Shown here: positions 40,617 to 62,738 of the stretch, piece by piece
Layout: every line of letters begins with the position of its first letter
How positions within the stretch are numbered: position 1 is the first letter of the stretch
NCBI GenBank assembly: GCA_020692355.1
Contig: JAIMKP010000001.1
Coordinates: forward strand, 1-64,000
Length of the DNA: 64,000 bases
DNA from: Desulfosporosinus sp.
Lineage (GTDB): Bacteria > Bacillota > Desulfitobacteriia > Desulfitobacteriales > Desulfitobacteriaceae
Direction: 5' to 3'
Made by a program: the position numbers and the translations under genes
The notes under the pieces: generated by a model
What the model was told of the DNA's origin: nothing
The model's input: only the letters and a program-made list of their open reading frames with translations
Databases searched by the model: none

Positions 40617-40618
40617 CG

Positions 40619-43305: not shown

Positions 43306-45084
43306 TCACAATACAAGATTCACAAAGGCTCCTTGATTTACGTCCACCAAACCACAATCGGTCAACTTCAGTTCCGGGATCACGGGCAGGGAAAGAAAAG
43401 CCAATGTCATGAACGGGTCCACATCGGAAATCATGCCCAAATGACGTGCGAAGCGTTTCATCCGTTTAAGAAGTTGTGCGACTTCCTCCGGTTCCTTATC
43501 TGTCATCAGCCCTGCAATTGGCAGCGGCAGCTTACCTAATACTTCTTTGCCCTGAACAAGGCAAAGCCCGCCGCCCATGTCCGCGCAAGTACGAACGGCC
43601 AAATCCATCTCCTCATCGGTCATTCCCACCACGACCAGGTTATGGGAATCATGGGCCACCGTTGAGGCAATGGCACCCTTGCTGAGGCCCAGGCCTTCCA
43701 CAAAGCCCACTCCCACCCGTCCGGATCCGTGATGCCGTTCCAAAACTGCGATTTTAGCAATTCCCTGAACTGGATCAGACTGGACCAACCCATCCCCACA
43801 GGGAAGCAACCCTTCCAGGGACGCTGTCACTACACTGTGTCCTTGAACCCCGATAACCCTGACTCGCACCTTTACATCGTCTTGATCCAACTTTAGTTGA
43901 ACGAGTTGACTATCCTGTGCCTGAAACGCCCCCGTTGGTGATACCCCAGAGACATTGAGCTTATCCCTGTGCCAGTCTCCCAGATGTACGCTCTCAGTTA
44001 AACCTGTGGTGCTATGTCTGGGAAAACGGGGTCGTGAACCCTTAGTACTCATGAGACGGCCCTGCCAATACACCTCACGGATCGTAAAATCCGCTAAGTC
44101 GTCAAGCACCACAAAATCCGCCTGATAGCCTGGCGCCACCGCCCCCAATTTTTCTAATCCTAAAGCTCGCGCTGCATTCAGCGTTGCCATCTGAATCGCC
44201 CGCACTGGAGGTTGACCCGCCCGAATAGCCATTCGGACCAAATGATCAATACTTCCTTCCTGCAGCAGATCGTCCGGATGCCGATCATCTGTCACGAACA
44301 GGCACTGGCCTGCGTTCTCAGGGGTCACAGCCGGCAAAAGGTTCAATAAATCTTTTGTAACACTGCCTTCTCTGAGCATCACATGAAAACCCCGGCGCAG
44401 ACGTTCGCGAGCTTCTGCGTCGGTAGAACATTCATGATCCGTGTGTATACCCGCAATAAAGTAAGCATTGAGGTCTTGAGGGGACATACCAGGAGCATGG
44501 CCGTCCTTAAACTTTACAGGCAACCGGAGCTTTTCCACCATATCAGGCTTGCCTTCCAGCACACCCCGATAATCCATGACTTCTCCCAGTCCGATGACTT
44601 GCGAATTGTCTAGAAACTCCCGCAATTCATGAGCGTCCAACCTGGCTCCGGATGTTTCCATGTCGGTGGCCGGCACACAGGAAGGGAGTGTGACAAAGGC
44701 GTTGAAAGGTAGATTTCTAACAGCTGATAAGATATAACGAATCCCTTGGCTTCCCATCACATTGGCGATTTCATGAGGATCCACGACAGCCGTCGTCACC
44801 CCATGGGAAAGCAGCAACGAGCAAAACTCCTCCGGGCAGAGCAGCGAGCTTTCAATGTGGACATGCCCATCGATCAGCCCTGGCACCACAAGTTTGCCGT
44901 CTAAATCAAGCGTCTGTTTCGCCTCTGGAAAAACTCCAAGACCTACAAAAACACCCTGATCAATCCCGATGTCCGTCATATGAACTTCGCCCGAAAAGAC
45001 ATTGACAAGCCTCGCGCGTCGCAGTACCAAATCAATACTGGCTAAACCCCGAGCCTCATCCATCTGTTGTTTCCAATCTCTCAT
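43306..45084 (-). CDS. adeC: Adenine deaminase
   Basis: Amidohydrolase that turns adenine into hypoxanthine and ammonia. The 592-residue protein shows the metal ligands in GLIDGHVHIESS, the VVDPHEIANVMG segment, AGIHTDHECSTD, FVTDDRHPDDLL and the family's C-terminal domain with VAHDSHNLVVVG and GGGLCLVQGKEV. Size and domain order match AdeC/YerA-type deaminases. The ATG at 45084 has an AAGGAGAC site. It sits between a second deaminase and the nucleoside transporter, so it feeds hypoxanthine to the molybdenum hydroxylases. Confidence 0.95.
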   Translation of the reverse strand: MRDWKQQMDEARGLASIDLVLRRARLVNVFSGEVHMTDIGIDQGVFVGLGVFPEAKQTLDLDGKLVVPGLIDGHVHIESSLLCPEEFCSLLLSHGVTTAVVDPHEIANVMGSQGIRYILSAVRNLPFNAFVTLPSCVPATDMETSGARLDAHELREFLDNSQVIGLGEVMDYRGVLEGKPDMVEKLRLPVKFKDGHAPGMSPQDLNAYFIAGIHTDHECSTDAEARERLRRGFHVMLREGSVTKDLLNLLPAVTPENAGQCLFVTDDRHPDDLLQEGSIDHLVRMAIRAGQPPVRAIQMATLNAARALGLEKLGAVAPGYQADFVVLDDLADFTIREVYWQGRLMSTKGSRPRFPRHSTTGLTESVHLGDWHRDKLNVSGVSPTGAFQAQDSQLVQLKLDQDDVKVRVRVIGVQGHSVVTASLEGLLPCGDGLVQSDPVQGIAKIAVLERHHGSGRVGVGFVEGLGLSKGAIASTVAHDSHNLVVVGMTDEEMDLAVRTCADMGGGLCLVQGKEVLGKLPLPIAGLMTDKEPEEVAQLLKRMKRFARHLGMISDVDPFMTLAFLSLPVIPELKLTDCGLVDVNQGAFVNLVL

Positions 45085-45163: not shown

Positions 45164-46495
45164 CTATGCTAAACCGACCCTCTGCAATACCCTATGCAGA
45201 CTCCGAGTCGAACTCTTTTTCAATGTTGGCACGTCAATCGTCAACAGTTGTCTGTCTTGCATGACGATCTGTCCATCAACCATCGTTAGGCGTACGTCAG
45301 ATGAATGGGCCTGATATACAAGTTGCGCATAGACATCAACATGTTCATTCGGCCAAGTATGCAGCCCGGCCAAGCTGACAATCGCTAAATCCGCTTTTTT
45401 CCCCACCTCAAGACTGCCCAAGTCATGTTCATGCAAAATGGCTTTAGCCCCGGAAAGCGTTGCCATCTCAAAAACTTGTTGAGCCGGCATCACGGTCGGA
45501 CCGAGCAAGGGTTTCTGAATCAAAGCCGCATGGCGCATTTCAACGAACGCATCCAGATTATTGTTGCAAGGGGCCCCGTCTGCGGCCAAGGAAACCAGTG
45601 CTCCGCGGGCAAGAAGTTCTGGAATAGGGGCCAGACCGGAAGCTAACTTTAGATTGGATGACGGGCAATGTACCACCCGGGTTTGACTCTCTACCAAAAT
45701 CTTCTTTTCCTCTTCATCCAACCAGATACAATGCGCTAAAAGCAGCCGAGAACCCGTGAGCCCGATTTCGTCCAGGAAAACCACGTTGCGTCGCCCCCGT
45801 GTACTTTCCACAACTTGAATCTCGCCGCGATTTTCTGAAGCATGGGTGTGCACAAAGGCTTTCTTCGCCTCAGCCAGGCGGGCAACCTCCTTAAGAAGTG
45901 GATCCGTACAGGAAATAACAAAGCGAGGGGTAAACGCCACTTCCAGACGACCGTTACCTTGTCCATGATATTTCTCAAAAAGGTCCACACTTTCCTGCAG
46001 AGAATCTTCCGTTGTTTCCTGTAAACTTCCAGGAACATCTCCACTGGGATCATCCATCATGCACTTTCCCGAAAGTGCACGCAACCCACTGTCTAAGATG
46101 GCCTGAAAGGCATGTTCTGTGTGATGTACCGTCTCCATATCGACGATGGTCGTGGTCCCCCCCAAAAATAGTTCTCCGCTCCCCAGGAGCGCTGAGTCAT
46201 ACAGGGATTCGGCATCATGGCCCCCCTCCAGCGGCCAGATCTTTAACTTAAGCCAATCGAGCAATTCCAAATCATCGGCCTGGCCCCGAAACAGGGTTTG
46301 ACACAAGTGAATATGCGGTTGAATTAAACCTGGAATCAGTAAATCTCCTCGAACATCCACCACCTTATCCACAGACACGTCAACCGTGCCCCCCACTTGG
46401 GCAATGCGATCACCGTCAACCAGCAAGTCCCCAGTGATAACCTCACGCTGCGCATTCATCGTCACGATCTTGGCATTTTTAAAGAGTATTCGCAT
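45164..46495 (-). CDS. Amidohydrolase, cytosine/adenosine deaminase-like (probable purine deaminase)
   Basis: 443-residue metal-dependent deaminase of the MtaD/DadD/TrzA group. Visible metal and catalytic segments are LIQPHIHLCQTLFRGQADDL, FVHTHASENRGEI, LLAHCIWLDEEE and LAADGAPCNNNLDAF. The substrate cannot be read off. Closest in feel are 5'-deoxyadenosine or S-adenosylhomocysteine/methylthioadenosine deaminases, but context also allows guanine or 8-oxoguanine deamination. It is not a clear SsnA. The start is uncertain: ATG at 46495 has a somewhat distant GGGAGG, while a GTG four codons earlier abuts it. A terminator-like hairpin separates it from the upstream permease. Confidence 0.85.
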   Translation of the reverse strand: MRILFKNAKIVTMNAQREVITGDLLVDGDRIAQVGGTVDVSVDKVVDVRGDLLIPGLIQPHIHLCQTLFRGQADDLELLDWLKLKIWPLEGGHDAESLYDSALLGSGELFLGGTTTIVDMETVHHTEHAFQAILDSGLRALSGKCMMDDPSGDVPGSLQETTEDSLQESVDLFEKYHGQGNGRLEVAFTPRFVISCTDPLLKEVARLAEAKKAFVHTHASENRGEIQVVESTRGRRNVVFLDEIGLTGSRLLLAHCIWLDEEEKKILVESQTRVVHCPSSNLKLASGLAPIPELLARGALVSLAADGAPCNNNLDAFVEMRHAALIQKPLLGPTVMPAQQVFEMATLSGAKAILHEHDLGSLEVGKKADLAIVSLAGLHTWPNEHVDVYAQLVYQAHSSDVRLTMVDGQIVMQDRQLLTIDVPTLKKSSTRSLHRVLQRVGLA

Positions 46496-46540
46496 TGGCT
46501 TTTCCACCCTCCCCTGTTTTCCCTAGGCTCCAATGTCCCC

Positions 46541-46702: not shown

Positions 46703-48046
46703 CTAGTTGATTATAAAGTGCAAAATAAACAAGACCGTCATGGTATAGGTTACCGCATTGTTTTCTTTGAAACGGCCTGTAACGAGTTTGATAATCGTGT
46801 AAGACATGAAACCAAAAGCCAAACCTTGAGCGATCGAGAAAGTCAACGGCATCATGATGATGGTCATAAACGCCGGAATCGCTTCCGTAAAGTCATCAAA
46901 ACGAATATGCACCACTTCGCTCATCATCAGGGTACCGACCAAGATCAACACCGGGGCCGTCGCTTCTGCCGGAATTAATCCGACCAGGGGCGCAAAGATG
47001 ATCGATACGGCAAACAATACCGCTACGGTCACGGCCGTCAAACCCGTTTTCCCACCTTCGGCCACACCGGAGGCACTCTCAATGTAACTGGTCACCGTCG
47101 GGGTTCCCATAACCGAACCAACCATAGTACCAATGGAATCCGCCAAAAGCGCGCGACCCGCACGGGGCAAATTCCCGTCTTTATCCAGCAAGCCCGCTTT
47201 ACGGGTTACTCCCAGCAAGGTACCAATATTGTCGAAGAGGTCAACAAACGTAAAGGCAAATAAAATGGAAATTAGACCGTAATTGAAAACTCCCATAATA
47301 TCAAGTTGTCCAAAGACTGGGGCGACAGCCTTGAAGGGATTTATTGGAGCTATGACATTACTGATGTTGGTCGGGGGTGGATATATTCCTGTAATCATAC
47401 CCATTACAGTGGTTAACAGGATCCCGATGAGCAAGCCGCCCTTGACCCGTTTGGCCATCATCCAACCCGTTACGATGAAGCCAAAGACTGCAAGGAGCAC
47501 ATGGGGAGACTTCATATCTCCCAGGGCCACAAACGTGGCCTTATCGGCAATGACAATCCCAGCATCTTTCAAGCCGATAAAGGCGATAAACAAGCCAATT
47601 CCGACTCCGATAGATAAGCGCAACACTTGTGGCACGCCTTCGATGATCCATTCCCGAACTTTAGTCACCGTGAGTAGAAAGAAGACTAATCCAGAAATAA
47701 ACACGGCTCCCAGGGCTGTTTGCCAAGGTAGTTTCATACCGATGACCACAGCATAGGTGAAAAAGGCATTAAGTCCCATTCCTGGAGCCAGCGCAATCGG
47801 ATAATTCGCCACAAATCCCATGATTAAGGTGGCAATCGCTGCCGAAATCGCCGTAGCTGCAAATGTAGCCTGAATCGGCATACCGGCATCTTTCAAAATG
47901 CTCGGGTTGACAAACAAGATATAGGCCATCGTCACAAAGGTGGTCACTCCGGCTAATAACTCTGTCCGCATTGAGGTATTCATCTCACTCAAGTGAAAGA
48001 TACGTTCCAATGCTCCTTGTGGCTTTTCATTGTGCGCAGTTGACAT
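46703..48046 (-). CDS. NCS2-family purine permease (AzgA/PbuG-like)
   Basis: 447-residue transporter with about 12 to 14 membrane segments. The N-terminal FHLSEMNTSMRTELLAGVTTF, AYILFVNPSILKDAG and APGMGLNAFFTYAVV segments are those of the AzgA/PbuG branch, which takes up adenine, guanine and hypoxanthine by proton symport. TVTSYIESASGVAEGGKTGLTA (read in parts) is the substrate-site helix. The ATG at 48046 has a GGGAGGG site. It follows the hydroxylase genes, so it is likely in the riboswitch-controlled unit. Confidence 0.93.
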   Translation of the reverse strand: MSTAHNEKPQGALERIFHLSEMNTSMRTELLAGVTTFVTMAYILFVNPSILKDAGMPIQATFAATAISAAIATLIMGFVANYPIALAPGMGLNAFFTYAVVIGMKLPWQTALGAVFISGLVFFLLTVTKVREWIIEGVPQVLRLSIGVGIGLFIAFIGLKDAGIVIADKATFVALGDMKSPHVLLAVFGFIVTGWMMAKRVKGGLLIGILLTTVMGMITGIYPPPTNISNVIAPINPFKAVAPVFGQLDIMGVFNYGLISILFAFTFVDLFDNIGTLLGVTRKAGLLDKDGNLPRAGRALLADSIGTMVGSVMGTPTVTSYIESASGVAEGGKTGLTAVTVAVLFAVSIIFAPLVGLIPAEATAPVLILVGTLMMSEVVHIRFDDFTEAIPAFMTIIMMPLTFSIAQGLAFGFMSYTIIKLVTGRFKENNAVTYTMTVLFILHFIIN

Positions 48047-48134
48047 GCACAGCCCTCCCAATAATTTTTTCCCCACAGTCACTTCTTAATTCCTACAGAA
48101 GTGTGTTCTTGTGCTGTCTTCACTATTCAATTGT

Positions 48135-49166
48135 TTAGCTATCTATGTTCTGACGCATCCCTCCTTCTCCAAATGTTCGTTCCTTCTCCACCAAAGCGGC
48201 CAGAATTTTTTCTGGCGTAGCCGGCAAAGAAGTGATACGCACTCCTACAGCATCGTAGATGGCGTTGACCACCGCAGCCAGAGTTGGAACCATCGCCGGT
48301 TCTCCCAACCCTTTGGCCCCGTAAGGGCCGGTGATCTCCTCCTCCTCTACGATGATGGTTTGTATATTAGGCACATCTAAGGCCGTAGGAATCAAATAAC
48401 TCGAGAAAGCGGGATTCTTAATCACTCCTTCATGAAGCTCAACTTCCTCCATGAGAGCATACCCTACCCCTTGCGCAACCGCCCCCGCGATCTGGCCCTC
48501 TACTTGGGTCGGATTGATCGCGCGCCCAACATCGTGAGCCGCAATGATACGCAAGACCTGAACCAGGCCTGTCTCCGTGTCCACCTCGACCTCCGCTACC
48601 TGAGCGCCAAAGGCATAGGGCCAATACGGTGCCCCCTGTCCGTTCTCCCTATCTACCGGGGTCGTGCGGGCTGTTGAACTTTCCGCACTGATAAAGCGTT
48701 CTCCGTGGAGACGTGCTTGAAATACCATATCCGCTAAAGGCTGACGACGGGATGGATCCCCGATTACACCAATCCAGCCTTCCTTAAGTTCGATCCCTTG
48801 GGCTGACGTACAGGAAAACTCGTGCGCCGCATGATCCAGTAAACGCTCTTTCGCTTCCCGGACCGCCTTTAGCACCGCGTTTCCCGTATTATACGTGTGC
48901 CGGGTGGCCGCAGAAGTTCCGGAATCAGGGGTCGTATCCGTATCCCCCGTAATCACGGTAATATCTTGGGGCTCCAGCCCTAATTCTTCAGCTGCTATTT
49001 GCGCAAAAACCGTACTGCTGCCCTGTCCGACATCAACAGCGCCTGTCGAGACCGTCGCCGAACCGTCATCATGAATTTCAACAAAAGCGCTGGAAACATC
49101 CGGGAAACCATTACCATACCCGGTCCCATACCAGCCACATCCGAGGCCGATCCCCCGTTTCTTCAT
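48135..49166 (-). CDS. Molybdenum hydroxylase, molybdopterin chain C-terminal half (NdhM-like split subunit)
   Basis: 343-residue protein equal to the C-terminal half of a xanthine dehydrogenase large subunit. It holds the pterin segment (TGAVDVGQGSSTVFAQIAAEELG, read in parts), DTDTTPDSGTSAATRHTY, and the active-site Glu at about 289 in AKGLGEPAMVP, equal to bovine Glu1261. The ATG at 49166 overlaps the stop of the upstream half (ATGA) with AAGGGGG before it, so the split is a coupled gene pair and not a frameshift. This layout matches the NdhL/NdhM pair of the four-subunit selenium-containing nicotinate dehydrogenase of Eubacterium barkeri. Purine context argues for a xanthine/purine substrate. 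Confidence 0.9.
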   Translation of the reverse strand: MKKRGIGLGCGWYGTGYGNGFPDVSSAFVEIHDDGSATVSTGAVDVGQGSSTVFAQIAAEELGLEPQDITVITGDTDTTPDSGTSAATRHTYNTGNAVLKAVREAKERLLDHAAHEFSCTSAQGIELKEGWIGVIGDPSRRQPLADMVFQARLHGERFISAESSTARTTPVDRENGQGAPYWPYAFGAQVAEVEVDTETGLVQVLRIIAAHDVGRAINPTQVEGQIAGAVAQGVGYALMEEVELHEGVIKNPAFSSYLIPTALDVPNIQTIIVEEEEITGPYGAKGLGEPAMVPTLAAVVNAIYDAVGVRITSLPATPEKILAALVEKERTFGEGGMRQNIDS

Positions 49167-50434
49167 GACGCATCCCCCTTCGTTGCCAAATAGGGTGTCA
49201 ATGCCTGCAGACATTTTGCCATACCCACGCTGGATGTGAGCATCTGGCCCGTCGCTGTCACGCTGCCGACATGAAAGATGTTGCGCAAACGCATTTCCAG
49301 TGGAGAAAGTCCAAGTGCTTCCGCCAATAGATCCATTTGACTCTCATATGCCAAGACCGGCTGCGCTGCTCCAAAGGCGCGCATCGCTCCTGAATAAGGG
49401 TTATTGGTCAAAACAGCATAGCTGTCAATCTGAACGTTAGGAATTTCATACGGTCCTGTCGCATGAATTGCCGCCTTGCGCACAACATTGGGACTCCAGG
49501 AAGAATAAGCTCCCGCATCACCAATAATCTTGGCCTCCAGAGCCACAAGCTTTCCATCCTTGGTCGCTCCCGTTTTATAATACAAGCGCATCGGATGGCG
49601 TTTGCTGTGAGACAAAAACGATTCCGTACGGGTATTCTCCATCTTGATGGGTTTTCTGAGCGTCCAGGCCATCAAACCGGCGATGATTTGGAGCGAAATG
49701 TCCTCACGTCCACCGAAGGCACCCCCGACTGCCATCGTCTTCACCCGAACTTGACTATATTTCAAACCTAGAGCATGGGCAATTTCTCCACGATCATAAT
49801 GGGCATACTGTGTCGCAACTTTCACGACTAGATGTCCCCGTTCGTCCACATAAGCCAATACCGCTTCTGGCTGCAGAAAAGCATGATCAAGCATTTGTGT
49901 GCGGTATTCTTTTTCCACCACAACATCCGCCTTGGTCCAGCCCGCTTGCATATCCCCACGCCGAATCGGCAGATGATAAAGGACATTGGAGGGACCATGC
50001 ATATCGGGATGCAGCGCGGGGGCATCTGGCTTCATCGCTTCCTCCGGATCAAACAATCCTGGCAGGATTTCATAGTCCACTTCGACCCGGGCAATGGCCT
50101 CGCGGGCAATCTTCTCCGTCTCAGCCGCAACCGCGGCAATGGGATCCCCCACCATGCGTACGCATTCAGACACGAGTACCTGCTGATCACGAAATAGTAC
50201 ACCATGGGCATTATGAGGAACATTCTCAGCCGTAAAAACTCCTACCACTCCGGGCAGAGCCGCCGCTGCCCGAACGTTTACACTCCGGATATGGGCATGA
50301 GCATGGGGGCTGCGCAGGACTGCGCCGTAAAGTTCTCCCGGACGATTCACATCCGCCGGAAAGTGTGTTTCGCCCAGAACCTTGCCCCAGCCGTCTTCCC
50401 GTTCAATGCGGGTTCCAACCACAGCTTCGTTCAT
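49163..50434 (-). CDS. Molybdenum hydroxylase, molybdopterin chain N-terminal half (NdhL-like split subunit)
   Basis: 423-residue N-terminal half of the hydroxylase large chain. It has the entry domain (GKVLGETHFPADVNRPGELY; PHAHAHIRSVNV) and the first Mo-site domain with VGGAFGGREDISLQ and SGAMRAFGAAQP. Glu244 and Arg352 here correspond to bovine xanthine oxidase Glu802 and Arg880, residues that position purines. It ends where the cofactor domain's second half would begin (SSVGMAKCLQALTPYL), and the remainder is the next gene. It overlaps the Fe-S gene by ATGA at the front and the second half by ATGA at the back. Confidence 0.92.
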   Translation of the reverse strand: MNEAVVGTRIEREDGWGKVLGETHFPADVNRPGELYGAVLRSPHAHAHIRSVNVRAAAALPGVVGVFTAENVPHNAHGVLFRDQQVLVSECVRMVGDPIAAVAAETEKIAREAIARVEVDYEILPGLFDPEEAMKPDAPALHPDMHGPSNVLYHLPIRRGDMQAGWTKADVVVEKEYRTQMLDHAFLQPEAVLAYVDERGHLVVKVATQYAHYDRGEIAHALGLKYSQVRVKTMAVGGAFGGREDISLQIIAGLMAWTLRKPIKMENTRTESFLSHSKRHPMRLYYKTGATKDGKLVALEAKIIGDAGAYSSWSPNVVRKAAIHATGPYEIPNVQIDSYAVLTNNPYSGAMRAFGAAQPVLAYESQMDLLAEALGLSPLEMRLRNIFHVGSVTATGQMLTSSVGMAKCLQALTPYLATKGDAS

Positions 50435-50895
50435 CGCGCTACCTCTTCAGCCGCTCTTTGCACCGCTTTTACGATTTTATCGTAGCCTGTACAACGGCAC
50501 AAATTCCCAGACATGGCCTCCTTAATCTCCTCTTCCGATGGCTGCGAATTTCTATCCAGTAACGCTTTCGCCGACAAGATCATGCCGGGCGTGCAAAATC
50601 CACACTGAACCGCTCCCAGCTCCACAAAGGATTTCTGTAAAGGATGGGGATGTAAGCGATCCCCGACGCCTTCAATCGTCATCAGTTCGTGTCCCACGGC
50701 TTGCGCCGCCAAGACCAAACAGGAATTCACAGCTTTACCGTCCATAAGGATCGTACAAGCACCGCACTCACCTTCGCCACAGCCTTCCTTCGTACCGATC
50801 AGACCCAAGCGGTTTCGTAATACGTCAAGCAAGCGTTCATCCGGTTCCACCACCAACCGGAAATCCTGTTCATTAACCCGGAGTTCAATATTCAT
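50431..50895 (-). CDS. Molybdenum hydroxylase, [2Fe-2S] subunit
   Basis: 154-residue subunit with both cluster motifs of the xanthine dehydrogenase family. The plant-type cluster uses Cys39, 44, 47 and 59 (GCGEGECGACTILMDG...SC). The second cluster uses Cys98, 101, 133 and 135 (CGFCTPGM; CRCTGY). It passes electrons from Mo to the FAD subunit. It lies 13 bases after the FAD gene and overlaps the large chain by four bases. The F-S-L-M gene order equals that of the nicotinate dehydrogenase operon. Confidence 0.96.
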   Translation of the reverse strand: MNIELRVNEQDFRLVVEPDERLLDVLRNRLGLIGTKEGCGEGECGACTILMDGKAVNSCLVLAAQAVGHELMTIEGVGDRLHPHPLQKSFVELGAVQCGFCTPGMILSAKALLDRNSQPSEEEIKEAMSGNLCRCTGYDKIVKAVQRAAEEVAR

Positions 50896-50908: not shown

Positions 50909-51733
50909 TCACTCCTGCAACAGCATCAATGCCTGATGCATAACGCCCCCAACAGCCACCGCTTTATAAGGTGCCGAAGCTCGCGTTTTAAGGGTTTCCC
51001 GCACCAGTTCCTGTGATCCACTGATCATCTCTGTCCGCCAGTGCACGTCGAGTTCGCGACCGATAAATCGTGCAGCCAAGGCCGGACTAAGGAAAGCCCG
51101 CTTACCGACCGCTCCGAAAGCTACCCGTAAATCCATCACCGTCTCTCCCTCAGTTTTCAGGGCCACAGCGACGCTGAGTCGAGCAATGGCCAATGCCCTC
51201 CGTCGTCCCAACTTGGCGAAGCCGCTCTGCCATCCTCGCAAGGGCACTAAGAACTTCCAAATTAAAGTTCCTGGAGCTAGCAAGGGATAACGTTCCAAAA
51301 ACACGGCCAGGGAGATGACTTCTTCCCCCGCTTGGCTACGCAAACAGACTTCAGCATCTAGAGCCAGTAAGGCGGGAATGGCATCTGCCGCCGGAGAGCC
51401 ATTGCCCAAATTACCGCCGATCGTTGCCTGATTGCGGATTGCAGGCGAACCCATGGTCTGACCGGCCAGCCAGAGCGCTCGCGCGCTGTCTTGGAGCAAA
51501 TTACTGTCACTTACTTCGCTAAAAGTGACCATGCTTCCCAACTCCAAAACGTCTCCGTTGCGTCGAATCTCCTTCAGCTCAGCCAGATTATGCACATCAA
51601 TAAGGCATTGCGGATTCACTTTTCCTTGCCTCATCTGTAGCACCAGATCGGTCCCCCCGCCTAAAAAGGCCGCTCCGGGACTTTGTCCCAGAGTCACTGC
51701 TTCTTCCACACTGCGCGGTCGGAAATAATCCAT
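50909..51733 (-). CDS. Molybdenum hydroxylase, FAD-binding subunit
   Basis: 274-residue flavoprotein of the CoxM/XdhB family, with FAD-contact motifs FLGGGTDLVLQMRQG (near residues 24-38) and TIGGNLGNGSPAADAIPAL (near 104-122), and a C-terminal CO dehydrogenase flavoprotein domain (LRVAFGAVGKRAFLSP). It presumably hands electrons to NAD(P) or another carrier. It is the first gene after the guanine-class riboswitch, with an AAAGGGGTGG site. The other hydroxylase in the cluster lacks an FAD domain, so this subunit might be shared, but that is speculation. Confidence 0.95.
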   Translation of the reverse strand: MDYFRPRSVEEAVTLGQSPGAAFLGGGTDLVLQMRQGKVNPQCLIDVHNLAELKEIRRNGDVLELGSMVTFSEVSDSNLLQDSARALWLAGQTMGSPAIRNQATIGGNLGNGSPAADAIPALLALDAEVCLRSQAGEEVISLAVFLERYPLLAPGTLIWKFLVPLRGWQSGFAKLGRRRALAIARLSVAVALKTEGETVMDLRVAFGAVGKRAFLSPALAARFIGRELDVHWRTEMISGSQELVRETLKTRASAPYKAVAVGGVMHQALMLLQE

Positions 51734-51810
51734 CGTTCCACCCCTTTTCTTTCGTCGAAAGACCGCATTAAGCGCCTAAAGCGCCTCAAGGAACCTCTAC
51801 TTGCACCAGG

Positions 51811-51932
51811 AAAACAAAACCGGATAACCGCAACAGACTACAAGAGCGACATCACTGTCACGCTCTCATAGTCGGATAATTTACGGTTATCCGGTAGAAA
51901 CTCTCGGACCAATCTCCAAGTATATATGAGAA
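51811..51932 (-). promoter_or_regulatory. Guanine-class purine riboswitch with terminator, predicted ON switch
   Basis: Aptamer at about 51863-51932. It has P1 TCTCATA/TATGAGA, a P2 stem with loop GATTGG, J2/3 AGTTTCTACC, P3 GGATAA/TTATCC with loop CCGTAAA, and J3/1 GACTATG. The C in GACTATG (equal to xpt C74) predicts a guanine/hypoxanthine-type ligand. Loop 2 is one base shorter than the usual GATATGG. Downstream, CGGTTATCCGGT (51819-51830) is exactly complementary to ACCGGATAACCG of J2/3-P3 (51884-51895) and is followed by TTTGTTTT. The 12-bp terminator can form only if P3 is unfolded, so ligand binding should permit transcription of the hydroxylase operon. Confidence 0.9.
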
Positions 51933-52018
51933 TACTATACAATTAATACGCTATTCGATTTCCAGCTTAAAAATCCTTCTGGTTTTCCTGACTTCTGAAA
52001 ATATTTTGTCCTTGCATC

Positions 52019-52855
52019 TTATTTTCCCCAACTTTCCATGATGGCCATGAGTACAGCAGCCCCAATCGCACGGGCTTTCTCAGAAATCGTCCAGCAGTAC
52101 TCTTTCTTAGCACGCGGATCAACATCACCCGTTTTAACTTTTTTCTCAATCGGCGTGCCTGTCCTCAACAATCCGCGCAGCACGCCGTCCAAGGGTGCAA
52201 CCACATTTTCCTGCCCATCAGCCGAATCGATCACACCTAATACATCGCCAGAGCGTACCAACTCACCGATCGAACGAGAAGCACGAAAAACCCCGGCCGC
52301 CGGTGAATAGACCACTCTCTCCCAGGTTTTCCCTCCGATCACTCCCGGTGTACCCGTATTCGGCTCGGCAGTACCCGTATAAAGTATACGCGCTAAGTGA
52401 TGGCCGCGGTTCGTTTCCACAACCGCATCAACATCTTCCCCCGCAGTAAAACCCGGGCCTAGCCCGAACGTGAGGGGAGCCATCTCTCGTTGAGTACCCA
52501 AATTACGCTTAGCCATGATCCCGTCCACCAATACGCTCGGTTTAATCTCCGCCAGGTATATCAATTCAGGATCGATGAGAACTGGGATCTCCCCTGCCTC
52601 CCAAACCTGATCAGACAGCGCTGGAACCTCAATCCGACGTGCGACGACATCCTCAACTTTCCAGCTACCTTCTAACACGGCACTGCCAAAGCAAACAGGC
52701 CAACGCACCATCAGAGGGTGCGCTGTCTCGGTCATAAGCACCCGAAATCCCGCTTTGGTAAGAACCCAGCCTACACCAGACGCCAGCTCCCCGGCACCCC
52801 GTATCAGAATAACCGCTTCACTCCGTTGATGCTTATCATCATGTCTGTTCCTCAT
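52019..52855 (-). CDS. yqeB: YqeB, selenium-dependent molybdenum hydroxylase maturation protein
   Basis: 278-residue protein of the YqeB (EF2563) family, found with selenium-labile molybdenum hydroxylases. It is thought to take part in Mo-site selenation or sulfuration. An N-terminal Rossmann-like loop is visible (ILIRGAGELASGVGWVLTKAGF, read in parts), then LEGSWKVEDVVARR, DGIMAKRNLGTQ, GLGPGFTAGEDVDAVVETNRG (read in parts) and the C-terminal SGDVLGVIDS lipoyl-like segment. It overlaps the upstream XdhC-type gene by 17 bases. It supports reading the neighbouring hydroxylases as selenium enzymes. Confidence 0.9.
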   Translation of the reverse strand: MRNRHDDKHQRSEAVILIRGAGELASGVGWVLTKAGFRVLMTETAHPLMVRWPVCFGSAVLEGSWKVEDVVARRIEVPALSDQVWEAGEIPVLIDPELIYLAEIKPSVLVDGIMAKRNLGTQREMAPLTFGLGPGFTAGEDVDAVVETNRGHHLARILYTGTAEPNTGTPGVIGGKTWERVVYSPAAGVFRASRSIGELVRSGDVLGVIDSADGQENVVAPLDGVLRGLLRTGTPIEKKVKTGDVDPRAKKEYCWTISEKARAIGAAVLMAIMESWGK

Positions 52856-53225
52856 CGCTATGCCCTCCGTTATCTCCTCCGTTGGCTAAATCATGGTCTT
52901 TTCCTGAATTGAAAGGTTGAATGAAGATCTCCATGATGCCACCGCAAACCATCCCATCCTCTTCAGCCACCTCGTGAGTCAAGTTAATCTGCACTGACAG
53001 GGGATCCCCAGTAGCCATAGCTCGAAGGGCGTGCCGCCGAGCCTCCGCTTCGCCGCAACCACCACCGATCGTCCCAACAATCCTTCCGTCTCGGAAAAAC
53101 AGAATCTGAGCTCCCGACTTGCGGGGGGTAGACCCTCGTGTGGCTACGATCGTAGCCATAGCCGCCTGCTCGCCCGGTGTCAAAGTTAAGATCGCCTCGA
53201 TAACTTTATCGTCCACTTTTTCCAT
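52839..53225 (-). CDS. Short XdhC/CoxI-domain protein
   Basis: 128-residue protein made only of the N-terminal XdhC/CoxI domain (ATIVATRGSTPRKSGAQILFF, read in parts; GTIGGGCGEAEARRHA; VCGGIMEIFIQP). In full-length XdhC this domain is fused to a Rossmann domain and delivers sulfurated molybdenum cofactor. The tail (SGKDHDLANGGDNGGHSDEE) is polar and disordered. It overlaps the upstream XdhC-like gene by 20 bases and yqeB by 17, suggesting coupled synthesis of a three-part maturation set. Confidence 0.88.
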   Translation of the reverse strand: MEKVDDKVIEAILTLTPGEQAAMATIVATRGSTPRKSGAQILFFRDGRIVGTIGGGCGEAEARRHALRAMATGDPLSVQINLTHEVAEEDGMVCGGIMEIFIQPFNSGKDHDLANGGDNGGHSDEEQT

Positions 53226-53994
53226 CCCCCTGACTGGCCTTCATATCCTCACTGCGGCCACGATGCCGAACCTTAATGATTTCAGCCATGATACTTACGG
53301 CAATCTCTTCAGGGGTTTGTGCCCCGATATCCAGACCAATGGGGGCATAAACGCAGTCTAACTTCTCTTCACTAAAGCCTTCTTCCCGTAAATCCTGCAT
53401 GAGAGCCTGAACCTTGCGTCGACTTCCGATCATGCCGATATAGGCTGCTTGATGTTGCTTGAATGTTTCGACTAAACAAGTTTTATCATGGCGGTGGCCC
53501 CGCGTCACGATGATCACAAAGGTATTGGCATCAAACCCCAGCTTATGAATCGCCGTTGTGAAGTCCTGGCAAACCACTTGATCGGCCTCAGGAAAACGTG
53601 CCCCATGTGCGAATGCCGGACGATCATCCACCACAGTGACTTGAAAATCCAGCATCTTTCCCATTTTGACAAGGGGGAGAGCAATATGCCCACCCCCCAG
53701 TACCACCAAGCGCAGCTGAGGTAAAATCGGATCTAAAAAAACCTTCAGTCCACCCTCAGGCAAAGCCACCGTCACTAATTGTGGTTCCTTACCTCCCAGT
53801 ACCTTGCTCAGGGAATCTGTCAACACATCAAGGACACGCGGTGGTAGCGTTCCCATCAACTCATGTCCCCGATCATCCATCAAGAAGTTAATCCCGACTG
53901 AACAATCCACTTGTGTGCTTTCGATCACGGTGCCCCAGACACCGAAACGATTGGCTTGAATATATGATCTTAGTTGTTCAAACAGTTTCTTCAT
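53206..53994 (-). CDS. xdhC: XdhC-family molybdenum cofactor insertion protein
   Basis: 262-residue protein with a diverged XdhC N-terminal part (about 1-100) and a clear C-terminal XdhC Rossmann domain: LVVLGGGHIALPLVKMGKML, VDDRPAFAHGARFPEAD, VTRGHRHDKTCL, YIGMIGSRRKV and APIGLDIGAQTPEEIAVSI (read in parts). The family binds molybdenum cofactor and passes it to xanthine dehydrogenase. I use the ATG at 53994 with an AAGGGG site; a GTG seven codons earlier overlaps the upstream stop (GTGA). Confidence 0.92.
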   Translation of the reverse strand: MKKLFEQLRSYIQANRFGVWGTVIESTQVDCSVGINFLMDDRGHELMGTLPPRVLDVLTDSLSKVLGGKEPQLVTVALPEGGLKVFLDPILPQLRLVVLGGGHIALPLVKMGKMLDFQVTVVDDRPAFAHGARFPEADQVVCQDFTTAIHKLGFDANTFVIIVTRGHRHDKTCLVETFKQHQAAYIGMIGSRRKVQALMQDLREEGFSEEKLDCVYAPIGLDIGAQTPEEIAVSIMAEIIKVRHRGRSEDMKASQGDGKSGR

Positions 53995-54011
53995 TGAATT
54001 AACCCCTTCTC

Positions 54012-56567
54012 TCACTTCTTGTAAGGTGTCTCCTGCAGGGGTAATGTGAGGCGCACTTTCCCATCGAAACGACGATAAGCAGCGGCCGCAGCTGGTGCTA
54101 CGGGAATGTCCGCGATCTCACCCACCCCTTTGGCTCCATACGCCAAGGGTGATGGATTCTTTTCCACTATCACAACCTCCATTTCCGGCATATCCGTCGA
54201 CCGCAAGAGTCCTAACGTTGCAAATTTTGCGGTCGGTATCCCATTCTGAAGTGGAAAATCTTCACGCAGAGCATAACCTAAACCCATGGCAATACCCCCT
54301 TCGATCTGCCCCTCAACCGCTTGCGGATTAATGGCCCGGCCCACATCATGTGCTGCTACCACCTTCTGCACCCTACCTTGTTCATTGAGCACCACCACAT
54401 GCGTCGCATAGCTGTAGGCTACATGATTCATAGGATGTTCTTTATCCGATTCAAGCGCATCGGTCTGCCCAAAGTATTCACCATAGTATTCGGTTCCTTC
54501 CAACGCTGCAAGCGTTGAACCATGTAAGGCCTGCTGCAGTTGTAAGGCTGCTTGGCGCGCCGCTTCCCCTGTAAACAGCGTTTGTCTGGACGCTGTCGAC
54601 GTCCCCGAATCCGGCGTTAAGAAGGTATCCGGAGGGTTAACCTCGATCCTTTCAGGGGACAACCCGGTCGCTTCACTGACGATTTGAATCAGAATAGTCG
54701 CAAGTCCCTGTCCCGTACAGGCTGCACTGGTCAACACGAGAACCTGACCGTTAAGGATCTTAATCCTTACGCGACCCACATCCGGTAGACCCACGCCAAT
54801 GCCTGTATTCTTCATGACACAAGCCATACCCGCATAAGGATGGGATTCATAGGCTTCCCGCACGGCCAGCAATGTTTCTTTCACTGCTGTCCCCTCATCC
54901 GCTATTTGTCCGGTCGGATTAATATCACCGGGTTCCAAGGCATTACGGAATCGCATCTCCCATGGAGAAATACCCACTTTCTCAGCCAAAAGATCCATAT
55001 TCGTCTCACAGGCAAAAGCGGCCTGAGGCACCCCAAAACCCCGGAAAGCCCCTGCCGGGGGATTATTCGTATAGACGGCGAATCCCGTAATGTCCACGTT
55101 AGGCACAACATAAGGTCCTCCAACATGCGTACATGCCCTTTGCAAAACGGCTGAACCTAAGGAAGCATAGGCTCCGGTATCGGCCACGATGTGGGCCACC
55201 ATCGCCGTAAGCTTACCTTCCTGATCACAACCCGTCGTAACCTCCAATTCCATGGCGTGTCGCTTGGGATGAACCAGGATACTTTCCTGCCTAGTCAATG
55301 TCAGCTTCACCGGTTTTTGCGCCTTCATTGCCAAAAGTGCCGCATGATGTTGAACGCTTAAATCCTCTTTGCCCCCGAAGGCTCCCCCCACCAATTTACT
55401 GATCACACGCACCTTGTCAGCGGGCAAGCCCAGATGTGCCATGATTCCATGCTGATCGTCATAAACGCTTTGACTGCCAATATAGACCGTAATTCCGCCA
55501 TCTGCTTGAGGAATGGCCAAAGCACTCTCCGGCTCCAAATACGCATGTTCTGTAGGGGGAGTCCTGTAGAGATGACTTACAACATAAGCGGATTCTGCCA
55601 GCGCTTTCTCCGCATTGCCCCGATGCACCACCGTCTTACTCAAGACATTCCCTTGCGGATGAATCTTAGGAGCATCTGCGGCGAGGGCCGCCGTCGGAGT
55701 GATCATCGGTTCCAAGAGTTCATAATCCACTTTGACCAAGTTTAACGCGGCACGAGCCTGTTCCTTGGTCTTGGCCGCCACGAGTACCAACGCATCGCCA
55801 ATATACCGAGTTTCTTCGCCCACAGCCACGAGGGCCGGCCAATCATGGAAGATATGCCCATGATAACGTTCACCAGGAATGTCCTCCGCCGTCATGAGTG
55901 CTTCAACACCGGAATACGAACGAGCAGCCGCTACATCGATCCCCCGGATTAACGCCCGAGGATGCTTCGTCCGCAACACGGCACCATAGAGCATATCCTC
56001 CACGAACATATCATCAACATATTCGCCCTTACCCAAGGCCTTCTCACGGGCATCCACCCGCTGCGGTTTGCTCCCGACCCCAACCTTAGTCCCAACAGCA
56101 AGCTTCGGCTGAATTTCCCCGCGCAGAACCTTGGCTGCAAGCATGATTCCTTCTTCGATCTTAACATATCCGGTGCAACGGCAAATATTACCGCGAATCG
56201 CTTGTTTAACATCTTGAGGGGTTGGATTAGGATTTTTGCTGATAAGCCCTTGCGCACTCATGATCATACCAGGTGTGCAAAAACCGCACTGCACGGCTCC
56301 AGCCTCAGCAAACGCCCAAGCATAGGCTTCACTTTCAGAGGCAGTAAATCCCTCCAACGTTAATAATTTCTTACCTGAAACTTTTGCTGTCGTCAGCAAA
56401 CAGCTGCGCATCGGTTTGCCATCGACTAAAATAGTGCAAGCTCCGCATGTACCCTCACTACACCCGTTTTTGACTGACGTTAGATGCAGGTGTTCCCGCA
56501 TAAACTCTAAAAGATTGATATCCTCGCCAATCGGATAGACGTGCCCGTTAATATCAATGTTATACAT
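54012..56567 (-). CDS. Fused Fe-S/molybdopterin hydroxylase, selenium-dependent xanthine dehydrogenase type (XdhD-like)
   Basis: 851-residue single-chain enzyme. An N-terminal two-cluster [2Fe-2S] module (Cys36, 41, 44, 56; Cys94, 97, 129, 131) is joined by a linker (about 145-165) to a complete molybdopterin chain with VGGAFGGKEDLSVQ and AFRGFGVPQ (equal to bovine Glu802 and Arg880), TPDSGTSTASRQT and the catalytic Glu in AKGVGEIADIP. No FAD domain is fused. The build matches the selenium-dependent xanthine dehydrogenase/XdhD group of gut purine degraders. It likely acts on hypoxanthine, xanthine or urate-level purines. Start ATG at 56567 (AAAGG upstream); a TTG three codons earlier is possible. 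YqeB and XdhC genes follow. Confidence 0.9.
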   Translation of the reverse strand: MYNIDINGHVYPIGEDINLLEFMREHLHLTSVKNGCSEGTCGACTILVDGKPMRSCLLTTAKVSGKKLLTLEGFTASESEAYAWAFAEAGAVQCGFCTPGMIMSAQGLISKNPNPTPQDVKQAIRGNICRCTGYVKIEEGIMLAAKVLRGEIQPKLAVGTKVGVGSKPQRVDAREKALGKGEYVDDMFVEDMLYGAVLRTKHPRALIRGIDVAAARSYSGVEALMTAEDIPGERYHGHIFHDWPALVAVGEETRYIGDALVLVAAKTKEQARAALNLVKVDYELLEPMITPTAALAADAPKIHPQGNVLSKTVVHRGNAEKALAESAYVVSHLYRTPPTEHAYLEPESALAIPQADGGITVYIGSQSVYDDQHGIMAHLGLPADKVRVISKLVGGAFGGKEDLSVQHHAALLAMKAQKPVKLTLTRQESILVHPKRHAMELEVTTGCDQEGKLTAMVAHIVADTGAYASLGSAVLQRACTHVGGPYVVPNVDITGFAVYTNNPPAGAFRGFGVPQAAFACETNMDLLAEKVGISPWEMRFRNALEPGDINPTGQIADEGTAVKETLLAVREAYESHPYAGMACVMKNTGIGVGLPDVGRVRIKILNGQVLVLTSAACTGQGLATILIQIVSEATGLSPERIEVNPPDTFLTPDSGTSTASRQTLFTGEAARQAALQLQQALHGSTLAALEGTEYYGEYFGQTDALESDKEHPMNHVAYSYATHVVVLNEQGRVQKVVAAHDVGRAINPQAVEGQIEGGIAMGLGYALREDFPLQNGIPTAKFATLGLLRSTDMPEMEVVIVEKNPSPLAYGAKGVGEIADIPVAPAAAAAYRRFDGKVRLTLPLQETPYKK

Positions 56568-56572
56568 TTCCC

Positions 56573-57964
56573 TCAACCTTTCTTCTGCGGTAACGACTTA
56601 CGGGATAAATAGACACCCCTTGGTTGAGACTCGTGGAGTTGACCCTCACGCACCACCTGACGCCCCCGCAAGAATACATGTTTCACCTGACCGTTCTGTT
56701 GAAATCCTTCATAGGGAGTGTAATCAACCGCTTGATGCAGCGTTTCGACACTCAATACAGAATCACCGTTTGGGTCCCAGACGGTAATATCCGCATCACT
56801 GCCAGGCGCCAAGGTGCCTTTTCGGGGGAATAAACCGAAGAGCTTGGCAGCCTGTGTAGAGGTATAATTTACGAATTGATTCATACTGATTTTACCCGGG
56901 ACAACCCCATACGTGTACATAAGCCCCATTCTTGTTTCCACACCAGGCGCTCCGTTAGGAATAAGGCTAAAATCGGTTAAACCCAAATCCTTGTGGCCGA
57001 CAAAATTAAAAGCACAGTGATCCGTCGCAATGGTATCCAAAAGACCGGTACGCAACCCACTCCATAAGGATTCCTGATCCTGTCGCGACCGCAGTGGCGG
57101 TGACAAGACATATTTTGCCCCATTAAACCCTTCCGCCTGATAACACGTTTCATTCAGCAACAGATACTGTGGGCAGGTTTCCGCATAGACTTGTGTGCCC
57201 CGCAGTTTGGCAGCCGTTACCACCTGGAGGGCATCTTCACTCGTCAGATGCACGATATACACCGGGGCCTGAGCAATTTGTGCTAAGGCAATCACCCGTG
57301 ACGTCGCTTCCTTTTCCGCCGTAACCGGACGCGTGAGCGGATGGTAAGCAGGAGTTGTCTGCCCCTTGGCACGGGCTTGCCGAACCAGCTCATAAACCAC
57401 ATCGCCGTTCTCGCAGTGTACGCAAACCAAAGCTCCACATTCTTTGGCTTGCCCCAGAGCCTGAAGTAGTGACTCATCATCGACTTGGAGTGTATGCTTA
57501 TAAGCCATGTAAAACTTGAAGGACGTAATCCCTTCCTTCAAAACGAGCATGGACATTTCTTGGGCCACTTGCATGTTCCAGTCTGTGACCGCCATATGAA
57601 AACCATAATCCGTATAGGATCGCCCGTCCGCCTTGCGATGCCAATTCAAAGTGGCCGCCTTAAGCGTCTCCCCGCGAAACTGGGTCGCATAATCCAGGAT
57701 GGTCGTTGTTCCGCCCAAGATCGCCGCCTTCGTACCCGATTCAAAGTCATCTGCAGTGGATATATTTCCCACTGGGAGATCAAAATGGGTATGGGGGTCA
57801 ATCCCCCCTGGAAACAACAAACATCCATCCACCAAGATTCTTTCATCCCCAGGATGTTCGAGATCGTAACCGATGGCGACGATCTGCTCTCCTTCAATGC
57901 GAAGATCCGCTTGATAGGAATCCACGGCGGTGACGATACGACCGCCAACCAGCACGATACCCAT
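56573..57964 (-). CDS. hyuA: Dihydropyrimidinase/hydantoinase
   Basis: 463-residue cyclic amidohydrolase. Metal and active-site segments are FPGGIDPHTHFDLP, the carboxylated Lys in GITSFKFYMAYKH, VCVHCENGDV, VYIVHLTSEDAL, and Asp in TIATDHCAFNF. Such enzymes open hydantoin, dihydropyrimidine or related five- and six-membered cyclic amides. In the E. coli-type cluster the matching gene is hyuA (ygeZ). In this island it should open a purine-derived ring. The ATG at 57964 has a GAAGGAGAGG site. Its stop overlaps a possible TTG start of the fused hydroxylase. Confidence 0.92.
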   Translation of the reverse strand: MGIVLVGGRIVTAVDSYQADLRIEGEQIVAIGYDLEHPGDERILVDGCLLFPGGIDPHTHFDLPVGNISTADDFESGTKAAILGGTTTILDYATQFRGETLKAATLNWHRKADGRSYTDYGFHMAVTDWNMQVAQEMSMLVLKEGITSFKFYMAYKHTLQVDDESLLQALGQAKECGALVCVHCENGDVVYELVRQARAKGQTTPAYHPLTRPVTAEKEATSRVIALAQIAQAPVYIVHLTSEDALQVVTAAKLRGTQVYAETCPQYLLLNETCYQAEGFNGAKYVLSPPLRSRQDQESLWSGLRTGLLDTIATDHCAFNFVGHKDLGLTDFSLIPNGAPGVETRMGLMYTYGVVPGKISMNQFVNYTSTQAAKLFGLFPRKGTLAPGSDADITVWDPNGDSVLSVETLHQAVDYTPYEGFQQNGQVKHVFLRGRQVVREGQLHESQPRGVYLSRKSLPQKKG

Positions 57965-58047
57965 AATTGCCTCTCCTTCAAAACCGTCCTCACCTGAAGC
58001 CCCTATGTTTTGCTATCGCAAAACGAGTTCACTTGCTGAACGAGGAA

Positions 58048-59304
58048 TCAGTCCAGATCCGGATAAAGCGGAAACTCCGTGCAAAGCGTGGCCACAATAG
58101 CCCGTGCCTGCGCTAGTTGACCCTCATCCTGGGGCGAAGACAATGCGATTCCAATCGCTTGAGCGATCCGTTCCATCGCTTCCGGAGTCATCCCGCGTGT
58201 GGTGACGGCTGGAGTACCGATTCGAATACCGCTGGTAACCTGCGGACTCGCCGGATCAAACGGAATCGTGTTTTTATTGACCGTGATCCCGATTTCGTCC
58301 AGAATATGCTCCGCTTCCTTACCGCTGAGACCTTTAGAACGCACATCCACCAGCATGAGATGGTTATCGGTACCCCCGGAAACTAAACGGAAGCCTTCCC
58401 CGTTTAAAGCCTGAGCTAAAGCCTGGGCATTATCAAGGATGCGCTGTTGATAACCCTTGAACTCCGGTTGTAAAGCCTCCCCGAAAGCGACGGCCTTCGC
58501 TGCGATGACGTGCATCAACGGTCCCCCCTGGGTTCCGGGAAAAATCGCTTTATCAATATTTTTAGCATATTTGGCTTGGCACAGGATCAATCCCCCCCGA
58601 GGACCACGAAGGGTCTTATGCGTCGTTGAAGTGACAAAATCCGCGAAAGGCACTGGGCTAGGATGTACCCCCACTGCTACCAACCCGGCAATATGCGCCA
58701 TATCGACCATGAGGTAAGCTCCCACTTCGTCCGCGATCTCGCGCAGCACCGGAAAATCGATGACACGCGGATAAGCGCTGGCTCCAGCCACGATCATCTT
58801 CGGATGGTGTTCCCGCGCCAGAGCGCGCACCTGGTTATAATCAATCCGCTCCGTTTCCGGATCCACCCCATATGGGATAAATTTAAAATACATTCCTGAA
58901 AGATTGACTGGGCTACCATGCGTCAAATGCCCTCCATGGGCGAGGTTCATGCCCAAGAGGGTATCCCCCGGTTTGAGCATAGCAAAGTACACGGCAATGT
59001 TAGCCTGAGCCCCGGAATGAGGCTGAACATTGGCATGCTCTGCTCCAAAGAGACGCTTGACCCGCTCCCGTGCTAAATCTTCCACGATATCTACATTTTC
59101 ACACCCACCATAATAACGTTTGCCCGGATATCCTTCCGCATATTTGTTGGTCAACACCGAACCTTGAGCCGCCATGACCGCCCGACTGACAAAGTTCTCT
59201 GAAGCGATAAGCTCAATCTTGTTACGCTGCCGATTCTCTTCCAGTTCGATAGCCCGAGCGACCTCATTGTCCTGGGGTGCCACCCATTTCTTAATATAAT
59301 CCAT
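58048..59304 (-). CDS. glyA: Serine hydroxymethyltransferase
   Basis: PLP enzyme that interconverts serine and glycine with tetrahydrofolate. The 418-residue protein shows [20 protein letters not shown] (read in parts), [22 protein letters not shown] and the Schiff-base Lys in [14 protein letters not shown]. As a housekeeping enzyme it need not sit here. Its place between hyuA and arcC suggests it handles glycine and C1 units from purine breakdown. A long hairpin lies between arcC and glyA. Whether a second glyA exists in the genome is unknown. Confidence 0.97.
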
Positions 59305-59372
59305 CGGTTAACCACTCCTTTACCGGATCGATTTTTGGACACACTGAATATCTATACCTAAGCCTTAAGTCT

Positions 59373-59409
59373 GCGCAGAGATCCTTCCCCACGGAAAGTA
59401 TCTCTGCGC
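59373..59409 (-). other. Long hairpin between arcC and glyA
   Basis: Perfect 10-bp arms GCGCAGAGAT/ATCTCTGCGC (59373-59382/59400-59409), extended inward by CTTTCC/GGAAGG with a 4-base loop, about 16 bp in all. No T-run follows on the minus strand, so it is more likely an RNA processing or stability element, or a weak terminator, than a strong terminator. Confidence 0.6.
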
Positions 59410-59419
59410 GTATTAAACC

Positions 59420-60370
59420 TTAGGGATAAACATGGGTTCCCGTCTTGCCGGCAACCGCTTCTTCCAGGGATTCGGGATTGGTGATGATGGCTTGTTTCCC
59501 ACCGTTTTCCAAGAAATCGATCACCGCCTGAATCTTAGGCAGCATGCTGCCCGATGCAAAGTGGTTTTCGCCTACGTAACCTTTCAGTTCAGCCAAATGA
59601 ACCTCGTCCAAGGCCTTCTCATTAGGCTGGCCAAAGTTCAAATAAACCTTGGGTACGCCTGTTGAGATGATGAGAATGTCGGCTTGAATTTCCGACGCTA
59701 AGAGCGCTGTCGCAAAGTCCTTGTCAATGACGGCATCGACTCCCCGCAAGATACCATCATCCTCTCTCACCACGGGAATCCCGCCACCGCCGACTCCGAT
59801 CACGCAATAACCCTCTTTGACCAAAAGGCTGATCACATCTTTCTCCACGATCGTTTGTGGACGCGGAGAGGGAACCACGCGGCGATATCCACGTCCTGCA
59901 TCACTCACCATGAGCCAAGAGGGGTTTTGCATTTGGATCGTCTCGGCTTGTTCCTTCGTGTAGAAAGAGCCTATCGGTTTGCTAGGTTTAACAAACGCGG
60001 GATCATCGGAGGCGACCACGACCTGTGTGACCACGGTGACGGCTGATTTATTCAGCCCCCGTCTCCTTAACTCATTGTCGACAGCCTGCTGAATCTGATA
60101 GCCAATGGCTCCCTGAGTATCGGCATCACAGCTAACAAGCGGTACCTGATGCATCCCGGCGATATCCATGGCGATCTCTGCTCTCCGCAAGATAAAACCA
60201 ACTTGGGGCCCATTGCCGTGCGTCACGATCACTTCATACCCCTGTTCGATCATGCCCACAATATGCCGGGCAGTCTCACAGATCGCCGCATATTGATCTT
60301 CCACCGTCTGATGCAGGCTATCTTTAATTAGGGAATTCCCACCGATGGCAACGACGGCTAATTTACTCAC
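59420..60370 (-). CDS. arcC: Carbamate kinase
   Basis: Transfers phosphate from carbamoyl phosphate to ADP, yielding ATP, CO2 and ammonia. The 316-residue protein has LAVVAIGGNSLIKD, VTHGNGPQVGFILRR, VVPSPRPQTIVEKD, CVIGVGGGGIPVV and DKDFATALLASEI. The start is a GTG at 60370, three bases from the ygeW stop, with a GGAAGATAAG site. Together with the carbamoyltransferase upstream it forms the energy-yielding end of the pathway. Confidence 0.96.
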   Translation of the reverse strand: MSKLAVVAIGGNSLIKDSLHQTVEDQYAAICETARHIVGMIEQGYEVIVTHGNGPQVGFILRRAEIAMDIAGMHQVPLVSCDADTQGAIGYQIQQAVDNELRRRGLNKSAVTVVTQVVVASDDPAFVKPSKPIGSFYTKEQAETIQMQNPSWLMVSDAGRGYRRVVPSPRPQTIVEKDVISLLVKEGYCVIGVGGGGIPVVREDDGILRGVDAVIDKDFATALLASEIQADILIISTGVPKVYLNFGQPNEKALDEVHLAELKGYVGENHFASGSMLPKIQAVIDFLENGGKQAIITNPESLEEAVAGKTGTHVYP

Positions 60371-60372
60371 GC

Positions 60373-61377: not shown

Positions 61378-61441
61378 TCTAATATGTCCTCCTTTAATTT
61401 TTCTAATTTTAAAATCTTAAGGTCATCTTTTCGCTCAAATC

Positions 61442-62695: not shown

Positions 62696-62738
62696 TAAAA
62701 TCCCCTTTCTTTCGATGTCTTCAGACCATGATTTATAA

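Follow-up and report, generated by a model that had tools for sequence, protein, structure and literature searches.

The window, by which we mean the whole 64,000-nt stretch of Desulfosporosinus sp. DNA analysed here, contains an operon on the minus strand whose products, on the basis of NCBIfam, PDB and Pfam matches, were read as proteins of purine uptake and catabolism, in agreement with the purine-oxidising operon predicted in the preliminary description. Its genes, in order of transcription, are as follows.

50909 to 51733, minus strand, FAD subunit of a molybdenum hydroxylase (XdhB-like), the operon's first gene (NCBIfam XdhB-type, below equivalog cut-off)
50431 to 50895, minus strand, 2Fe-2S subunit (NCBIfam XdhC-type)
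49163 to 50434, minus strand, large molybdopterin subunit, nicotinate-dehydrogenase (NDH) type (best PDB match 3hrd_A, E 3.5e-104)
48135 to 49214, minus strand, medium molybdopterin subunit, NDH type (best PDB match 3hrd_B, E 4.7e-91)
46703 to 48082, minus strand, NCS2-type nucleobase permease (Pfam PF00860)
45164 to 46507, minus strand, amidohydrolase (NCBIfam 5'-deoxyadenosine deaminase model, above cut-off)
43306 to 45084, minus strand, adenine deaminase (TIGR01178, 577 bits, above cut-off)
38449 to 43206, minus strand, ABC nucleoside-type transporter: ATPase, two permeases and a BMP-like lipoprotein (BMP assigned by eye from sequence)

Judging from its neighbours, the hydroxylase presumably acts on purines; in its subunit organisation it corresponds to nicotinate dehydrogenase, and the amidohydrolase also resembles 8-oxoguanine/guanine deaminase models of NCBIfam. 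As in nicotinate dehydrogenase, the molybdopterin subunit is split over two genes (48135-50434), the gene for the medium subunit probably starting at 49166, so that it would overlap that of the large subunit by 4 nt. A frameshift in XdhA as the origin of this split was ruled out by the overlap and by the match to the two-chain 3hrd, which indicate separate subunits; in locus L036, a single 792-aa open frame covers both molybdopterin subunits. A second purine/ureide cluster is located upstream (52019-62743) on the same strand, comprising genes for a selenium-dependent xanthine dehydrogenase, XdhC-type maturation proteins, YqeB and an amidohydrolase and, further, GlyA, a carbamate kinase-like protein, a carbamoyltransferase and an M20 peptidase. 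No sigma-70-like promoter was found in 51700-52100 by a consensus scan, and the same-strand upstream genes could be a source of read-through into the operon's leader.

This leader contains a purine riboswitch aptamer, RF00167 being the sole Rfam family to score above threshold in the 64-kb window. The preliminary description had called the aptamer guanine-class and proposed a covariance-model check, which gave 79.9 bits on the minus strand at 51949-51849 (cmscan, Rfam; E 1.1e-12, cut-off 37). The equivalents of C74, U51, U47 and U22 were placed by the xpt numbering, C74 being the Watson-Crick partner of guanine, hypoxanthine or xanthine.

51849 to 51949, minus strand, purine riboswitch aptamer (cmscan against RF00167)
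51864 to 51931, minus strand, aptamer core (fold; pair covariation)
51931-51925 and 51870-51864, minus strand, P1 (fold)
51924, 51900 and 51896, minus strand, equivalents of U22, U47 and U51, respectively (sequence)
51920-51915 and 51908-51903, minus strand, P2 (fold)
51914-51909, minus strand, L2, GAUUGG, 6 nt (fold)
51902-51894, minus strand, J2/3 (fold)
51893-51887 and 51879-51873, minus strand, P3 (fold)
51886-51880, minus strand, L3, CCGUAAA (fold)
51872-51871, minus strand, J3/1 (fold)
51871, minus strand, equivalent of C74 (sequence)

The motifs AGTTTCTACC, CCGTAAA (loop) and GACTATG were all present where they had previously been placed, but the base-by-base match to xpt that had been claimed does not hold, as J1/2 is UAUAUA (Rfam consensus UAUAAU), L2 is, as had been noted, one base short and the sequence of P3 differs. 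Despite these differences, the pocket bases are identical to those of xpt, and the ligand-contacting bases, U51 and C74 included, are of the guanine-I (xpt) type. With C74 in J3/1, U51 in J2/3 and no junction insertions, the element falls by sequence into the guanine-I class. It differs from adenine riboswitches, which have U74, in its C at 51871; from xanthine-II, defined by U51G together with J2-3 and J3-1 insertions (PMC9295807), in its U at 51896 and freedom from insertions; and from guanine-II, for which we applied as criteria a retained U51, a one-nucleotide J2-3 insertion and other xanthine-II-like changes, in that its Rfam alignment is insertion-free in J2-3 and J3-1.

Strands of this aptamer also make up an intrinsic terminator, the parts of which are listed below.

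51884 to 51895, minus strand, J2/3-P3 segment ACCGGATAACCG, also the terminator 5' arm (exact complement of 51819-51830)
51861 to 51873, minus strand, GACTATGAGAGCG, covering the end of P3, J3/1 and the 3' strand of P1; doubles as 5' arm of an inner terminator hairpin (fold)
51836 to 51848, minus strand, CGCTCTTGTAGTC, inner hairpin 3' arm and predicted invader of P1 (fold and length series)
51819 to 51830, minus strand, CGGTTATCCGGT, terminator 3' arm (sequence complement, shuffles)
51811 to 51819, minus strand, U-rich tail TTTTGTTTT (sequence)

The 12-nt complementarity between 51819-51830 and 51884-51895 is exact, as originally described, with the U-rich tail adjoining it, and 5,000 shuffles of the downstream stretch produced perfect complements to J2/3-P3 of at most 9 nt. 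Folding of 51905-51808 gave a terminator of -46.0 kcal/mol in which the pairing extends beyond these 12 nt, GACTATGAGAGCG (51873-51861) pairing with CGCTCTTGTAGTC (51848-51836). Full folding showed that the terminator uses up J2/3, P3, J3/1 and the P1 3' strand, so that the folded aptamer and the terminator exclude each other, a proposal of the preliminary description that is borne out by both the fold and the length series (see below). An intrinsic terminator made of the P1, J3/1 and P3 strands of the aptamer is the hallmark by which we recognised a pbuE-like ON platform.

We searched an alignment of XdhB against 84,980 species genomes and found 19 loci with at least 50% identity, the next matches having 42% or less. 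These loci belong to Desulfosporosinus, Acididesulfobacillus, Paradesulfitobacterium and Peptococcaceae CEB3 (Desulfitobacteriales) and to MAGs. Conservation of the pairing in homologues had been put forward as a test, and in all 19 a purine aptamer lies directly 5' of the gene, with a terminator 3' arm pairing into the aptamer. No convincing pre-gene aptamer was seen when 61 XdhB loci of greater divergence were searched by regex. Across 23 relatives, 94.8% of cells in the aptamer helices were paired (0/500 shuffles as high), with changes on both sides at 12 pairs. P3 is of two types in this family, CCGGATRACC and CGAGGCAACC, and the terminator arm has changed in step with them. Compensatory changes affect several positions (U-A to C-G and G-C to A-U among them), and the switch from one P3 type to the other in itself requires coordinated change. 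Scored against its own P3, the arm reached 449, compared with a permuted mean of 298 (sd 31; 0/20,000 permutations, the tree not being modelled).

The comparison was widened to 157 distinct loci, drawn from relatives and from a phylum-wide sample. Terminators consuming the aptamer were called at 35 of the 43 NDH-type hydroxylase loci versus 5 of the 46 biosynthesis/salvage loci (Fisher p 7e-12, kinship ignored); seven of the eight hydroxylase loci missed have the same pairing with a U-run that is interrupted, shorter or late, mostly TTTCTTT. As the 5/46 biosynthesis loci flagged show, the automated ON rule has a false-positive rate; a generic rule with a looser U-tract over-called ON in biosynthesis loci (10/46), and the stricter rule is reported for this reason. 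A whole-element covariance model (R1) mainly picked up purine aptamers of the ordinary kind and, on its own, could not tell ON from OFF. Beyond the Desulfitobacteriales, ON loci were found mainly in family f16, before hydroxylase, BMP and NCS2 genes, with additional ones in family f34 and at L230; permease loci elsewhere were mostly non-ON. Within f16, G072 encodes an acetyl-CoA synthase that is almost identical to PDB 1oao, the enzyme of Moorella thermoacetica. The design is also seen in Moorella and a small number of other Bacillota, where it precedes genes for purine hydroxylases, nucleoside uptake and permeases.

The mutually exclusive folds, the conservation in 19/19 orthologous operons, the covariation of terminator arm and P3 and the contrast with biosynthesis switches together support the direction originally predicted, and we infer that the element is very probably a purine riboswitch of the guanine-I type that switches transcription of the purine uptake and catabolism operon ON. 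During RNA synthesis, the aptamer would fold first. If ligand is absent, the arm 51848-51836 would invade P1 and J3/1, and invasion would proceed into P3 (51830-51819 with 51895-51884), resulting in the intrinsic terminator. Pairing of C74 with guanine (or hypoxanthine/xanthine) would lock the three-way junction and stall strand exchange at P1, allowing RNA polymerase to clear the U-tract into the hydroxylase-permease-deaminase genes. We modelled this by extending the RNA stepwise from a modelled transcript start at 51935 and assuming that ligand contributes a bonus of -9 kcal/mol. In this length series, the aptamer was the best fold up to about nt 96; at nt 100, invasion of P1 gained 4.4 kcal/mol without ligand and was unfavourable by 4.6 kcal/mol with the assumed bonus; and at full length, once the last arm was made, the terminator was ahead by about 20 kcal/mol. 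At equilibrium, the terminator was therefore favoured even with ligand, so that the switch would work only if kinetics permit. As modelled, the series matches the published description of the Bacillus subtilis pbuE adenine switch, likewise ON, in which strand exchange begins at the post-aptamer hairpin, passes through P1, J3/1 and P3 to form the terminator, and is ligand-blocked and kinetically controlled (PMC7707468); pbuE, however, has U74, responds to adenine and controls a pump gene, whereas the element described here has C74 and precedes a catabolic operon.

Both U51 and C74 are kept in 43/43 NDH-type hydroxylase loci. Given that C74 selects a guanine-type Watson-Crick partner, and given the only about 10-fold discrimination of the guanine-I pocket against hypoxanthine and xanthine (PMC9295807), the natural ligand may be guanine or the 6-oxopurine pool. 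An ON switch that instead senses xanthine, hypoxanthine, 8-oxoguanine or another oxidised purine, on the grounds that the operon degrades these, seems doubtful to us. The purine-type hydroxylase and deaminases of the operon would suit such a ligand, as would the sensing of xanthine by related catabolic switches (xanthine-II) and the existence of an 8-oxoguanine variant (PMC9295807), and the Desulfosporosinus branch has a changed pair adjoining the pocket (G54-C72) and U73. However, J2/3 and J3/1 in the window are identical to those of xpt, and loop 2 is not part of the pocket; moreover, xanthine-II requires U51G and a J3-1 insertion (PMC9295807), neither of which occurs in the window, whereas both are present in L048 and L239, described below.

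Guanine-I switches are normally OFF (PMC9295807), four guanine OFF switches being known from C. difficile (PMC11477304), and the one other purine switch in this genome, before purE-purB, has terminators built solely of bases downstream of the aptamer. It is nevertheless very unlikely that the present element is an OFF switch as in xpt-pbuX, with a ligand-stabilised P1 freeing an independent terminator, because the only strong pre-gene terminator in the fold is composed of aptamer strands, this overlap is kept in all 19 orthologues and a scan for an independent terminator-like hairpin found none. It is hardly credible that the aptamer is a relic and that the hairpin terminates constitutively, or stops read-through, between two neighbouring purine gene clusters. 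The element does lie ~70 nt past yqeB, on the same strand within a long purine/selenium cluster, but the conservation of pocket, P1-P3 covariation and terminator coupling across genera would be unexpected for a relic.

The shortened loop 2 had been put forward as a reason to test ligand preference; its length of 6 nt stands, but it is common to the whole Desulfitobacteriales ON family and lies outside the ligand pocket, which argues against its being a sign of a new ligand. Scored from the J1/2-to-J2/3 spacing, a short L2 occurred in 41/58 ON loci among catabolic/uptake genes and in 4/75 non-ON loci (biosynthesis and catabolic/uptake genes pooled), the kinship of loci being ignored in both counts. 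When an xpt aptamer was combined with the pbuE platform, termination was inefficient until the L2-L3 contact was weakened (PMC7707468). In light of this result and the enrichment in ON loci, the short L2 is more likely to reflect loosening of L2-L3 for strand exchange than an altered choice of ligand.

With guanine-I xpt-pbuX (RF00167), the element in the window shares the three-way junction, J2/3 GUUUCUACC, J3/1 GACUAUG, L3 CCGUAAA, U51 and C74; xpt-pbuX, however, is of a type that is usually OFF, with an independent terminator and biosynthesis/uptake genes, whereas here the terminator consumes the aptamer, catabolic genes follow and L2 has 6 nt rather than 7. Purine-family ON switches are already known, namely adenine pbuE, xanthine-II (catabolic), guanine-II and 2'-dG-III, the last three as predicted ON classes alongside an OFF guanine-I (PMC9295807). 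Xanthine-II is also a purine-scaffold ON switch, located before xanthine dehydrogenase and allantoinase genes, but its U51G and junction insertions are all absent here. Guanine-II and 2'-dG-III have guanine-related ligands, but they differ in altered junction bases, in their phosphoribosyltransferase/nucleoside hydrolase genes and in a narrow spread in other Bacillota (PMC9295807). Xanthine-I (NMT1) likewise controls purine-oxidation genes, but has an unrelated fold and is a translational OFF switch (PMC7373994). In the open-access literature, we found no report of a guanine-I aptamer with an ON platform before purine catabolism genes.

As a combined reading, we tentatively propose that, in Desulfitobacteriales, Moorella and some other Bacillota, guanine-I aptamers make up an ON regulon governing purine catabolism. 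These switches would oppose OFF guanine-I switches of purine biosynthesis in the same genome, would often have a shortened L2 with a weaker L2-L3 contact easing terminator invasion, and may have undergone a ligand shift in the Desulfosporosinus branch (the changed pair and U73). If so, one genome would use the same purine signal with opposite signs through RNA alone, turning purE-purB off and purine breakdown on, and the guanine-I class would have a wider use than known. It would also provide a natural test of the xpt-on-pbuE engineering result (PMC7707468), L2 being apparently shortened in natural ON versions. Moorella, one of the lineages with this design, includes a well-studied acetogen.

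Other purine switches were observed among the loci compared. L049 and L050, of the same family as L048 and L239, are U74 adenine-type switches with aptamer-consuming terminators before adenine deaminase (ade). L048 (aptamer at 300-460) and L239 (minus strand, first 230 bases), from Desulfosporosinus-group genomes, are xanthine-II-like, with U51G and a J3/1 insertion, and have aptamer-consuming terminators before another xdh operon, extending such switches past the organisms named in PMC9295807. The terminators of both pairs are in line with known ON classes. At L040 (G037:C63), a purine aptamer near 2235 precedes a gene for an SsnA-like deaminase; after the aptamer comes an independent hairpin, very long and almost perfect, one arm of which repeats the P3 sequence GATGACC. 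Finally, in a relative of the same genus (L033, G001:C67; aptamer near 300-400), the short loop 2 is accompanied by a loop 3 with one A fewer (CCGTAA).
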